From Dyella jiangningensis (GTDB taxonomy: Bacteria > Pseudomonadota > Gammaproteobacteria > Xanthomonadales > Rhodanobacteraceae), in the NCBI RefSeq assembly GCF_003264855.1, contig NZ_NFZS01000001.1, positions 868,001-932,000 on the forward strand: a stretch of 64,000 nucleotides of DNA. The letters are read 5' to 3'. Below, piece by piece: positions 8,087 to 54,391 of this stretch. The position numbers and the translations under genes were made by a program. The stretch's first letter is position 1. Every line of letters begins with the position of its first letter. The notes below the pieces were generated by a model that was given only the letters and a program-made list of their open reading frames with translations, made no database searches and was not told where the DNA came from.

Positions 8087-8365
8087 GCCTCTCGACGCGC
8101 ACCTTCGCACCACTTGTAGGAGCGCACCCTGTGCGCGACCGCGGAATGACGGCATCACCGCTCCGTAGGCCTGTCGCGCACAAGGTGCGCTCCCACAAAA
8201 AACGGACGCGACATTGACGCAAGCTGATATCGAAAAGACGGTCTTTTAGCGGCCCCTCGAGGCGCACTTTGCTCCACTTGTAGGAGCGCACCCAGTGCGC
8301 GACCGCTGCGTATCGGCGTGACAGCTCCGTAGGCTTTTCGCGCACTGGGTGCGCTCCTACAGGAC
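8087..8365. repeat. Two diverged REPIN-plus-flank units, ~164-bp spacing
   Basis: Two REPINs (8115-8197 and 8279-8361) are each preceded by a related flank (CTCGACGCGCACCTTCGCAC versus CTCGAGGCGCACTTTGCTCC). The repeat distance is 164 bp. Between them lies a perfect 7-bp inverted repeat with a one-base centre, AAAAGAC-G-GTCTTTT, at 8233-8247, which could act as a small terminator for the kinase gene. Confidence 0.8.
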
Positions 8366-9030
8366 ATCCAATGATCCACGTGCAGGTCGAGCTCGGCACA
8401 GCGAACTGCCGTTGGCGACGATGTCGCCATTCCCGCCGTTGTGGGAGCGCACCCTGTGCGCGACCGCAGAGCTACGGTGTCACCGCTCCGTAGGCTTTTC
8501 GCGCACTGGGTGCGCTCCTACAGGGAATAGGACATCCAATGATCCACGTGCAGGTCGAGCTCGGCACAGCGAACTGCCATTGGCGACGATGTCGCCATTC
8601 CCGCCGTTGTGGGAGCGCACCCTGTGCGCGACCGCAGAGCTACGGTGTCACCGCTCCGTAGGCTTTTCGCGCACTGGGTGCGCTCCTACAGGGAATAGGA
8701 CATCCAATGATCCACGTGCAGGTCGAGCTCGGCACAGCGAACTGCCATTGGCGACGATGTCGCCATTCCCGCCGTTGTGGGAGCGCACCCAGTGCGCGCC
8801 CGCAGAGCTACGGTGTCACCGCTCCGTAGGCTTTTCGCGCACTGGATGCGCTCCTACAGGGAATGGGACATCCAATGATCCACGTGCAGGTCGAGCTCGT
8901 CACCGTGGAACTGCCATTAGCGACGATGTCGCCACTCCCGCCGTTGTAGGAGCGCACCAGTGCGCGACCGCCGAGTGCCGACGTGACAGCTCCGTAGGCT
9001 TTTCGCGCACTGGGTGCGCTCCTACAAAAA
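8366..9030. repeat. Tandem array: four copies of a 168-bp REPIN-containing unit
   Basis: The anchor CCAATGATCCACGTGCAGG begins each unit, with its ATG at 8371, 8539, 8707 and 8875, an exact period of 168 bp. Each unit carries one REPIN (8440-8522, 8608-8690, 8776-8858 and 8945-9026). The first three units are almost identical; the fourth has several changes and lost one C in its left REP. Because 168 is divisible by three, the array stays open in one plus frame and gives a 56-residue repetitive reading frame. I see no start signal for that frame and treat it as non-coding. Confidence 0.93.
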
Positions 9031-9076
9031 ACGCTCGGCGGACAACAGGCAAGAAGAAGGGCGCCGAAGCGCCCGT

Positions 9077-22018: not shown

Positions 22019-22257
22019 TACCGGCAGGTTGCTCTCCTGCGGCGGGCTTCCGTCCTCCTGCCGGAGGCCGGGTCACTTCTCTTTGCAAGGCCAAAGAGAA
22101 GTAACCAAGAGAAAGGCCACCCCGATGCCGCGCCCCTGCGGGGTCGCAGACGGGAGGCGGGTGGATCGACAGGGCGTCCTGCCCTGACGATCCACTGGCC
22201 GGCGTCCTGCCGGCCACCCTGCGGGCTGATCCACCTCCCGTCTGCTCGCGGCATAGG
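22019..22257. repeat. Composite structured repeat (AAAGAGAAGTAACC family plus nested hairpins)
   Basis: The left part (about 22070-22118) is a palindromic repeat GTCACTTCTCTTTGC-AAGG-CCAAAGAGAAGTAACC; a second copy with the same core is at about 33430-33480. The right part (22125-22254) has nested perfect stems: 8 bp (22125-22132 with 22247-22254), 12 bp (22146-22157 with 22234-22245), an inner hairpin 22161-22195 and a second hairpin 22197-22215. Both inner hairpins have the loop GTCCT. Likely a transcribed or mobile non-coding element; function unknown. Confidence 0.75.
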
Positions 22258-22302
22258 GGAGGGAAGGTCAAAGACCAGAGCCAAGAGCGGGGCTCTCTTC
22301 CC

Positions 22303-22376
22303 TGTAGGAGCGCACCCAGTGCGCGACCGCAGAGGTAATAGATACGCTGCGGTCGCGCACTGGGTGCGCTCCTACA
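22303..22376. repeat. REPIN, 74-bp class
   Basis: Same arms and spacer type (CAGAGGTAATAGATACGCTG) as the element at 13624-13697, including a shared left flank with AGAGC-AAGAGCGG. Confidence 0.88.
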
Positions 22377-22431
22377 GGGGGGAGGCACGAGCAGCGGCGC
22401 GTGCGGAAACCGTCGCGTGACACCGCGACTG

Positions 22432-23334
22432 TTACACCTCGTGATGCAATCCCTCTGCCTGCACCGCAGCACCGCCACGCGGCACCAGCTCCACCAGGTA
22501 CATTGCCGCCAACACCAGCGTGCCGCCGACCACCATGCGCCAGGTGAGCGCATCGTTGCCGAAGGTCACCGCGAAGCCTGCGGCGAATACCGGCTCCATC
22601 GTCATAACGATGGCCGCCCGCGTCGGCGAGAGGTGTGCCTGCGCCCAGGTCTGCACGAGCATGGCGCCCGCGCCGGCAGCCAGCGCCATGTAGATCACCG
22701 CCAGCCACGCGCCGCCGTCTGGCGGCAGGCTTGGACCCGATGGCAGCGTGGCGAGAAGGCAGATCAGCGCGATCACCAGCATCTGCACGGCGGACAGTGC
22801 GAACGCGTTGCCCGGCCGTGACCAGGCGCCGAGGCCGACGATGTGCAGGCCATACAGCAACGCCGAGATCAGCGTGAGCCACACGCCGTAGCCGATGCTG
22901 AAGCCGTGCAGCGCGAGCAGTCCGAGACCGCCCACGGAAAGCAGTACCGCGATCCACGTGATGGAGGGCAGGCGCTGGCGCAACAGGACGGTGCCGAGCA
23001 GTGGCGTGAAAACCACATACATGCCCGTGACGAAACCGCTGATGCTCGCCGAGGTGTGTTCCAGACCCGAGGTCTGCAGCAATTGCGCGATGCCATACAT
23101 GGCGCCCAGCGCGATGCCTTGCAGCCATTCGCGACGGCCCAGGCGCAGCAGGTGGCGATGGAACAGCGCGATCATCACCAGGGCGGCGATCACGAAACGC
23201 ACGGCAAGGAAATCCGCCACCGCCATGCGCGCCACCAGATCCTTGATGAGGAAGAAGGTGGAGCCCCAGATGGCGGTGACGCTGATCAGTCCGAACGTGG
23301 CGAGCGCCGCGGTGCGCTTGTCCGTCGCGCTCAT
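22432..23334 (-). CDS. EamA/DMT family transporter
   Basis: A 300-residue inner-membrane protein with about ten hydrophobic helices in two EamA halves (VTAIWGSTFFLIKDLVAR at the start; IYMALAAGAGAMLVQTWAQA and TRAAIVMTMEPVFAAGFA in the second half). Members export amino acids or metabolites; the substrate is not evident. The start at 23334 overlaps the stop of the glycosyltransferase gene as ATGA, so the two are coupled. Confidence 0.9.
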   Translation of the reverse strand: MSATDKRTAALATFGLISVTAIWGSTFFLIKDLVARMAVADFLAVRFVIAALVMIALFHRHLLRLGRREWLQGIALGAMYGIAQLLQTSGLEHTSASISGFVTGMYVVFTPLLGTVLLRQRLPSITWIAVLLSVGGLGLLALHGFSIGYGVWLTLISALLYGLHIVGLGAWSRPGNAFALSAVQMLVIALICLLATLPSGPSLPPDGGAWLAVIYMALAAGAGAMLVQTWAQAHLSPTRAAIVMTMEPVFAAGFAVTFGNDALTWRMVVGGTLVLAAMYLVELVPRGGAAVQAEGLHHEV

Positions 23335-24239
23335 GCGTTGTTCCCATGGGCCAGCCGGCGTCGCAGCAGACGCAGCCACTGACCGGGAATCTGCAGCAGG
23401 AAATGCGACCAGATGCCAAGCCACACCAGGGCGGACACCCACGGCTTGCGTGCTTCAGGGTCGAACTTGCGGAACCAGCGCCACATGCCGCGATGCTTGT
23501 GGCGACTGACGAAGACCGGGCGATGCCGGCTCGAACTGCCCTTGCCGTGCAGCACGCGCACGTCGCCGGCGAGCATCACCTTGTAGCCCGCGTCGCGAAC
23601 GCGACGGCACAGGTCGAGGTCTTCGCAATGCAGGAAATAGGCTTCGTCAAAGCCCGCCAGGTAATCGAAGAGGCGTCGCGGCAGCACCATCAGCGCGCCG
23701 GACACGGCTTCCGCCTCCACCAGCTCGTGCGGAATCGGGCCTTCGATGTTCACGCCTTCGCCGGGCCGGTTGAACATGGTGTTCAAGGAACGCTTGAGCA
23801 GCGGGTCGCGGCGGTAGGAGGCCGGATCGGGTTCGCCGTTCTCGTCGCAGACCACGGCGCCGACAAGACCGACGCGTTGCTGCGTGGCGAGGACGTCGAG
23901 CAGGCGGACCAGCGTCGCGTTGTCGATCAGGCAGTCGGGGTTGAGCACCAGCACCGTCTTGCCGTGCGCGTGCGATACGCCGCGGTTCACGGCCGGGCCG
24001 AAGCCGAGGTTTGCATGGTTGTAGACCACCTGCAGCCGGGCGTCATTTTCATGCGCACGCGCGATGGCCTGCGGAATGCCGTCGGCCGACGCGTTGTCGA
24101 CCAGGATCATTTCCAACGGCAGTTCGCACGCCAGCACGCGACGCACGCAGTCGCGCAGGGTGGGCCCGCTGTCGGCGGCGACCACGATCACGCTGAGCGG
24201 CAGCAGGGAAGAGACGGCTTGGGTGGTATCGGTATTCAC
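23331..24239 (-). CDS. Glycosyltransferase family 2
   Basis: A 302-residue GT-A glycosyltransferase. The N-terminal domain has PLSVIVVAADSGPTLRDCVR, the nucleotide-binding VDNASADG and NLGFGPAVNRG, and the metal-binding region VLVLNPDCLID. Later come EAVSGALMVLPRRLFDYLAG and FDEAYFLHCEDLDLCRRVRD, typical of rhamnosyl/galactosyl transferases of the WcaA/RfbF group. A C-terminal hydrophobic segment suggests membrane association. The start codon is GTG. Probably acts in surface polysaccharide assembly; the sugar is unknown. Confidence 0.9.
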   Translation of the reverse strand: MNTDTTQAVSSLLPLSVIVVAADSGPTLRDCVRRVLACELPLEMILVDNASADGIPQAIARAHENDARLQVVYNHANLGFGPAVNRGVSHAHGKTVLVLNPDCLIDNATLVRLLDVLATQQRVGLVGAVVCDENGEPDPASYRRDPLLKRSLNTMFNRPGEGVNIEGPIPHELVEAEAVSGALMVLPRRLFDYLAGFDEAYFLHCEDLDLCRRVRDAGYKVMLAGDVRVLHGKGSSSRHRPVFVSRHKHRGMWRWFRKFDPEARKPWVSALVWLGIWSHFLLQIPGQWLRLLRRRLAHGNNA

Positions 24240-54121: not shown

Positions 54122-54220
54122 CCACGACACATCGTTCCACTGGCTGCACGATGCTCCCGGGAGTCATACCCCGAGATGGTGGTAAACTCCCCCGGCCGGT
54201 TCGCCGGCAAAACCACAAAC

Positions 54221-54384
54221 GACGTCTTCAGGGCGGGGTGACATTCCCCACCGGCGGTAGACCCTTCGGGGTGAGCCCGCGAGCGCTTCCGGTGTCATCG
54301 GAAGGTCAGCAGATCCGGTCCAATGCCGGAGCCGACGGTTGGCAGCCAGCGATGGCTTCCAGAAAGTCCGGATGAGAGAAGACG
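54221..54384 (+). ncRNA. FMN riboswitch (RFN element)
   Basis: All conserved blocks of the RFN aptamer are present in order: CTTCAGGGCGGGGTG, CCCCACCGGCGGTAG, GAGCCCGCGAGCG, GGTCAGCAGATCCGGT, CCGGAGCCGACGGTTG and AGTCCGGATGAGAGAAGA. The closing stem P1 pairs GTCTTC (54224-54229) with GAAGAC (54378-54383). It binds FMN and represses the downstream ribE. A likely terminator hairpin follows at 54420. Confidence 0.96.
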
Positions 54385-54391
54385 GTACGGC

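Follow-up and report, generated by a model that had tools for sequence, protein, structure and literature searches.

CsrA (RsmA) is a global post-transcriptional regulator, and RNAs such as CsrB or RsmZ act as a sponge for it from one or a few loci. The small RNAs that sequester it have promoters of their own and are often controlled by Gac. Repeats are our other point of comparison: REPs are thought to be recognised by RAYT proteins, and the neisserial intergenic mosaic elements are mosaics of short repeats bounded by the hairpin repeat dRS3.

A CsrA/RsmA site, as described in the available text of two papers (PMC4383904, PMC4333381), is a GGA in a hairpin loop, usually with sites in pairs, and the accessible part of a third gives ANGGA as the CsrA motif (PMC9788540). 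TwoAYGGAY is a predicted CsrA binder according to the portions available of PMC4333381 and PMC2864571. RsmU/sRX061 of Xanthomonas campestris, in the part of PMC7694677 open to us, binds RsmA, comes from the 3′ UTR of one mRNA and is conserved only in Xanthomonas.

It is beside these systems that we place an element found once in the window, by which we mean the whole 64,000-nucleotide stretch of Dyella jiangningensis DNA analysed here. Judging from sequence comparison, the element is probably an RNA that binds CsrA/RsmA, with a dispersed intergenic mosaic repeat as the carrier of its many copies. Its nearest relatives in working principle are CsrB/RsmZ and TwoAYGGAY; in genomic habit they are the REP/BIME repeats. 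What appears to be new is the presence of predicted CsrA-type RNA hairpins within a dispersed repeat, such hairpins themselves being of a known kind.

Comparison with known families

Like CsrB/CsrC and RsmX/RsmY/RsmZ, the element carries several hairpins with a loop GGA in each RNA and has a U-rich tract after the fold. Unlike them, it comes in up to tens of dispersed copies where they occupy one to a few loci; its fold is compact and multibranched with a long closing stem, and it has no Rfam match at cut-off (in the window and ten element loci, with RF00166 alone sought genome-wide). The PrrB_RsmZ model (RF00166) gave nothing above cut-off in 59 family genomes, with weak matches in 21 (the best 32.1 bits against 44) and none in the window. 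Two of these weak matches, both below the cut-off of 44, are possible RsmZ relatives in their own right: G031:C1:2023991-2024134 (32.1 bits) and G005:C15:348877-349023 (31.3 bits).

TwoAYGGAY (RF01731) has two hairpins with AYGGAY-type loops, and some loops of that type, ATGGAT and ACGGAT, occur in the element too. The element differs in being a repeat, in having AGGAC, AGGAT, AGGA and AGGGAT loops as well, and in finding no match to the Rfam model in the window or ten element loci. RsmU/sRX061 resembles it, by description, as an RNA with GGA motifs in a related genus.

The likeness to REP/BIME repeats with RAYT (the accessible part of PMC2817692) lies in dispersed intergenic palindromes and in a REP doublet inside the composites here; the element differs in lacking the GTAG head, in being larger and multibranched, and in its conserved loops. 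The REP head (GTAG or GTGG plus an imperfect palindrome) is absent from the element's ends and present in the adjacent doublet. The neisserial dRS3 mosaics are alike, by description, as short-repeat mosaics bounded by a hairpin repeat, here ATCCCGGCGTAGGCCGGGAT.

At gathering threshold no Rfam family falls on the element in the window, and relaxing the limit to E 5 brought nothing to the element region but matches far below gathering (microRNA hairpin families, an IRES, a flavivirus stem-loop). Ten element loci, scanned at E up to 1, have sX13 and sX6 matches next to elements, and one element each is overlapped by RAGATH-32 (24.9 bits against a cut-off of 41.8) and mir-2387; all of these are below cut-off. 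No description of this repeat family was found in the freely accessible literature searched. On these model matches we would file the element under none of the families compared. The same scans brought up an FMN riboswitch (RF00050, 95.4 bits) at 54220-54387 (+) of the window and, near a composite elsewhere in the genome, an sX13-like sRNA at L002:1089-1207 (-), at 42.7 bits below its gathering score of 50.

The element and its fold

The dispersed repeat is 145 bases long, and its conserved fold belongs to one strand. The features of the window copy are as follows.

22115-22259, minus strand: whole element (covariance model R2, 121.9 bits; one of 29 copies in its genome)
22120-22132 with 22247-22259, minus strand: closing stem P0, one mismatch (from the sequence; covarying helix 1)
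22146-22157 with 22234-22245, minus strand: stem P2 (from the sequence; covarying helix 2)
22161-22195, minus strand: hairpin Hc, loop AGGAC at 22176-22180 (loop GGA in 60 of the 61 copies of alignment A3 and 27 of 29 own-genome copies)
22196-22216, minus strand: hairpin Hb, loop AGGAC at 22204-22208 (loop GGA in 60 of 61 and 28 of 29)
22217-22225, minus strand: short hairpin Ha (CCC-GCA-GGG), the control without GGA (loop GGA in 1 of 61 and 0 of 29)
22133-22143, minus strand: hairpin Hd (CCCC-GCA-GGGG in the window copy; loop GGA in 27 of 61 and 0 of 29)
22105-22114, minus strand: U-rich tract TTTCTCTTGG directly 3′ of the element, a candidate intrinsic terminator
22071-22106, minus strand: conserved palindrome GGTTACTTCTCTTTG..CAAAGAGAAGTGACC, with a T.G pair on this strand
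22302-22377, strand not assigned: REP doublet GTAGGAGCGCACCC..., a RAYT-type REP adjoining the element and outside the RNA element (compare the Xaxo REP in the available part of PMC2817692)
21039-21782, plus strand: flanking convergent DsbC-like gene (DsbC_N + Thioredoxin_2)
22432-23442, minus strand: flanking convergent EamA-like transporter gene

A sequence-only reading of this stretch had described an 8-bp outer stem (22125-22132/22247-22254), a 12-bp stem (now P2) and hairpins at 22161-22195 and 22197-22215, both with the plus-strand loop GTCCT, and the sequence bears out all of these. The outer stem in fact lengthens by CCCC/GGGG across one mismatch to become P0. That reading used the plus strand, whereas the minus strand is the more informative. 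What makes the shared GTCCT important is its complement, AGGAC, a CsrA-type loop. The minus-strand fold is made up of two stems, closing and inner, and the hairpins Ha, Hb, Hc and Hd; AGGAC is exposed by two of the four. After the fold come TTTCTCTTGG and then a 15-bp palindromic hairpin. The plus strand over 22115-22264 folds 6.5 sd better than dinucleotide shuffles; the minus strand over 22066-22262, which includes the downstream palindrome, reaches -136.1 kcal/mol (z -9.9). Not one of 200 shuffles was as good in either case. Long ORFs overlap the element in the window.

Covariation of the stems

Two covariance models were used: R1, from 15 own-genome copies, and the broader R2, from 61 copies of which some are own-genome. 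The 15 copies in a plain MAFFT alignment (A1) pair in 96.7% of cells. Double changes occur in 22 of 59 pairs against 12.2 when shuffled and 1-4 when slid, a comparison that favours the structure over its slid versions since it was derived from the same copies. One of the five measures of covariation, further pair types, is not above shuffles in this alignment (34 versus 33.0). By eye, three versions of a stem can be made out: GTGGATCG/CGATCCAC, GTTTGTCG/CGACAAAC and CTTTTCG/CGAAAAG.

The effect is far larger in the 61 copies from many genera (A3, for which 36 of the available loci were used). Here 95.4% of cells pair, double changes are seen in 50 of 59 pairs, the 605 double-change cells compare with 145.5 in shuffles and 38-81 in slid versions, and no shuffle out of 500 reaches the observed value on any of the five measures; alignments A2 to A6 were fitted to the model structure, and these pair counts lean towards it. 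A2 includes three antisense rows, which are absent from A3 by E-value. The copies are related, so the covarying changes are non-independent events. Despite the kinship of the copies and the structure-fitted alignment, the effect is so large and stem turnover so evident that a selected fold is by far the best reading of the covariation.

The loops

On the minus strand, the loops of Hb and Hc read AGGAC, AGGAT, AGGA, ATGGAT, AGGGAT, AAGGAT or ACGGAT. The pattern is A(N)GGA(N): the A and the GGA are kept, with a free base before GGA in the longer loops and a free base after it. Two hairpins, in other genera sometimes three, present such loops while their stems change freely; Hb alone has 21 distinct stems among 61 copies, and the loop GGA is kept.

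The pattern holds beyond A3. The 104 copies of A5, taken from 66 of 103 named loci in Dyella and Rhodanobacter, have a loop GGA in Hb 101 times, Hc 101, Ha once and Hd 20, the Hc counts being circular for 68 copies that match the pattern, containing the Hc loop, with which the loci were fetched. The 36 copies outside that pattern have it in Hb 35 times, Hc 33, Ha once and Hd 7. Weaker matches (A4, 43 copies, largely from other families and some from the window's own) give 38 for Hb, 42 for Hc, 3 for Ha and 16 for Hd, and were partly selected for GGA, since the models include the loops. Matches in A3 and A5 score 62-182 bits and by our estimate should not hinge on a few loop columns.

Spacing is regular as well. 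In the own-genome copies that allow the measurement, 26 in all, successive GGAs start 27-28 nt apart. Two copies (L060:488-697 and L081:4896-5100) have an insertion in the apex of Hc with additional GGA-loop hairpins.

Copies and carrier

The Dyella genome of the window holds 29 copies (R1 and R2), all at E ≤ 1.2e-12 with none between 1.2e-12 and 0.01, and a DNA search of the same genome returned full and partial copies. Matches at E ≤ 0.001 were found within the family in 76 of 97 genomes, representing 23 of 26 genera (at most 30 candidates were scored per genome, so copy numbers are lower bounds). An order-wide sample gave matches in 32 of 151 genomes, 11 of them outside the window's family and spread across four other families. 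In a class-wide sample at E ≤ 1e-4 there were 20 of 229, including the window's own genome and one other of its order (at most 12 candidates scored, so again copy numbers are lower bounds). Scores are lower in the rest of the order and class than in the family. A fuller search of seven further genomes found 8, 13, 36, 47, 47, 60 and 64 copies. Three loci titled Candidatus Eremiobacteraeota (BOG_genome_mining.93; L091, L104 and L106) have a Dyella-type repeat near contig starts, possibly through binning contamination.

Many sampled loci hold two elements back to back, about 100-350 bp apart. In L002, L010 and L031 the pair flanks a REP doublet, with palindromes and, in some, CCCGGCGTAGGCCGGG-type hairpins outside. 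The composites have inverted-repeat ends, seen by eye and placed approximately. Pairs in the sampled loci are minus/plus in 40 cases and plus/minus in 2. Inverted pairing as a fixed rule was rejected on plus/minus pairs in L174, L175 and L197. In the complete genome G451 no two of 47 matches lie within 4 kb. The unit there is about 900 bp (three loci read, 30 compared): an outer hairpin, a palindrome, a spacer without a second model match and a REP doublet, then a (GCTTTTG)n-like run, the element, the U-tract, a palindrome and an outer hairpin.

The orthologous site was sought in 20 genus loci; 18 lack a match to the left neighbour within the fetched flank, and the element is present in 4. L244, the only one besides the window's own to match that neighbour and the one relative with the same gene pair, carries an element of the other type, on the other strand, in the gap between those genes. 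The two halves of a composite may have been lost differently. Elsewhere in the window, a tandem array at 8113-9048 has a unit spacing of 161-168 bp with REP-like segments inside, and 19 sites (family D4) are abundant TGTAGGAGCGCACCC..GTGCGCGAC REPs that resemble the RAYT-associated REP of Xanthomonas as given in the available part of PMC2817692.

Such a carrier raises the question of whether RNA matters at all. The element might instead be a DNA-level mobile palindrome, a single strand that folds during replication and has its loops recognised by a transposase, with RNA playing no part. We consider this rather unlikely, and it is the alternative that survives best. In its favour are the mosaic composites, with their inverted-repeat ends and embedded REP doublet, and a copy number that varies by species from 8 to 64 in the seven genomes, none being found in 21 of 97 in the family.

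Replication itself provides the best evidence for a mobile palindrome. Of the 47 copies in G451, 36 place the GGA strand head-on to replication (p 3e-4); thinning same-strand neighbours leaves 19 of 27 (p 0.05). Replication arcs were taken from the GC skew of 20 sampled pieces. In G462 it is head-on in 12 of 15 among the 18 listed of 36 matches, three pair partners having been dropped. The test covered these two genomes. Flanking gene orientation does not explain the bias in G451, where 28 usable of 30 loci, out of 47 copies, are, in the element's orientation, +- 12 times, -- 8, ++ 7 and -+ once. The bias points to a DNA-level dispersal process.

Against a mobile palindrome stand the hairpins themselves: two or three, with unrelated stems and the same A(N)GGA(N) loop, suit a protein that binds loops at several sites better than a single cleavage site, and the control hairpin Ha, part of the same fold, lacks GGA. 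In addition, a plasmid search with a composite query returned one 55-bp piece among 72,556 records.

The strand that folds

Wobble pairs tell us which strand folds. Read on the GGA strand, A3 has 70 G.U against 16 A.C (28 versus 10 pair columns), with 145 other non-pairs, and A5 has 127 against 36 (27 versus 9 columns), with 230. The downstream palindrome, present after 130 of 204 elements, has a variable pair that is T.G in 92, T-A in 35, C-G in 3 and C.A in none of the 130; in its inner arms T.G and C.A stand at 4 each. Over 160 copies, T makes up 70% of the first 5 nt 3′ of the element on the GGA strand and 43-65% across the next 20, compared with 13-42% on the 5′ side.

For the most part, then, wobble pairs and tract point to folding of the GGA strand. 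Folded DNA would likewise favour G.T over A.C, and the strand data alone do not separate RNA from single-stranded DNA. The T-rich tract lies after the fold on one side only, which does not suit a mobile palindrome, and tract and loop pattern together favour RNA. Around the window copy, a simple scan of the region did not call the minus-strand U-tract as an intrinsic terminator, and no consensus sigma-70 promoter was matched. Both halves of the suggestion made from sequence alone, either a structured RNA or mobile DNA whose fold is recognised, keep support: strong covariation supports a selected fold, the GGA loops, G.U excess and U-tract back the RNA half, and the dispersed mosaic repeat backs the mobile half. 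With a covariance model built from relatives, stems that covary and 29 copies in the genome, neither a want of covariation nor a want of other copies can be held against it.

Flanking genes

With gene calls made as GC3-based ORF picks, 149 clusters gave 102 with both flanks (7 were dropped for ORF overlap and 40 had no flank within 1200 bases), and removing 3 duplicates of one place under two locus ids (4 of 218 hits) left 99. The flanking genes of these are convergent in 40 cases, co-directional in 54 and divergent in 5; comparison gaps of 150-1500 bp at the same loci are divergent in 22 of 85. This shortage of divergent gaps, together with the U-tract after the element, is what one would expect if the element were only a 3′-end structure, a bidirectional terminator or mRNA stabiliser between genes with no role for CsrA. 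We regard that as unlikely: termination or stability requires stems, not loops with a fixed GGA beside a GGA-free control hairpin. Single copies between co-directional genes are on the same strand in 11 cases and the opposite in 18, so selection for read-through (sense over antisense) was not seen.

The likely partner

If the loops bind, what do they bind? A CsrA gene is present in 59 of 59 family genomes. In the class sample a CsrA match was found in 15 of 20 element-bearing genomes, compared with 194 of 229 overall. An association of element and CsrA was therefore rejected for the class, the element-bearing genomes not being enriched for it. The five without a match are G259, G320, G344, G385 and G407 (completeness 81, 73, 95, 87 and 86). 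These five, and the resemblance of A(N)GGA to a Shine-Dalgarno sequence, would fit a different partner, such as the ribosomal anti-Shine-Dalgarno or another RNA-binding protein. We hold such a partner to be very unlikely, since a loop GGA on short hairpins in pairs is the CsrA site as described in the available text of PMC4383904 and PMC4333381. Least credible is an RNA switch between two alternative pairings of GTGGATC, proposed from the GATCCAC segments that do occur twice in the window copy (22189 and 22228), and we reject it because 1 of 29 own-genome copies, the window copy itself, has both.

Several of these results count against CsrA/RsmA binding, and we do not wish to hide them: the element-bearing genomes without CsrA, the missing promoter match, the terminator missed by the scan, the lack of sense bias, a replication-strand bias that an RNA function does not predict, the equal G.T and A.C counts inside the palindrome arms, the Shine-Dalgarno-like A(N)GGA, and the further pair types in the 15-copy alignment.

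How it might work and what it would mean

If CsrA/RsmA is nevertheless the partner, the element would be a cassette, dispersed as DNA, whose minus strand gives a structured RNA; its carrier is an intergenic mosaic repeat rarely placed between divergent genes. The RNA would be transcribed by read-through from neighbouring genes or from a separate promoter, and the transcript would end at the U-tract. Loops 27-28 nt apart could then dock CsrA/RsmA dimers, and 29 copies in the Dyella genome, and up to 64 in the genomes counted, might amount to a distributed CsrA/RsmA sponge or buffer. We put forward only tentatively, from sequence, the larger idea that a mobile or mosaic repeat with a CsrA/RsmA-binding RNA as cargo acts as a sponge across the genome, determining how much CsrA is free in Dyella, its relatives and scattered members of the class.

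One practical gain is that a covariance model now covers sequence otherwise prone to spurious gene calls. As for Xanthomonas, the accessible part of PMC7694677 reports that the genus has no homologue of the RNAs known to antagonise CsrA. A repeat family whose loops are of CsrA type, in up to tens of copies per genome, would offer a concrete candidate antagonist in the group and, if the proposal is true, a repeat family that works through RNA. It would be a sponge in genomes without a known classical CsrB-type RNA, and a selfish repeat and a global post-transcriptional regulator would have become coupled.
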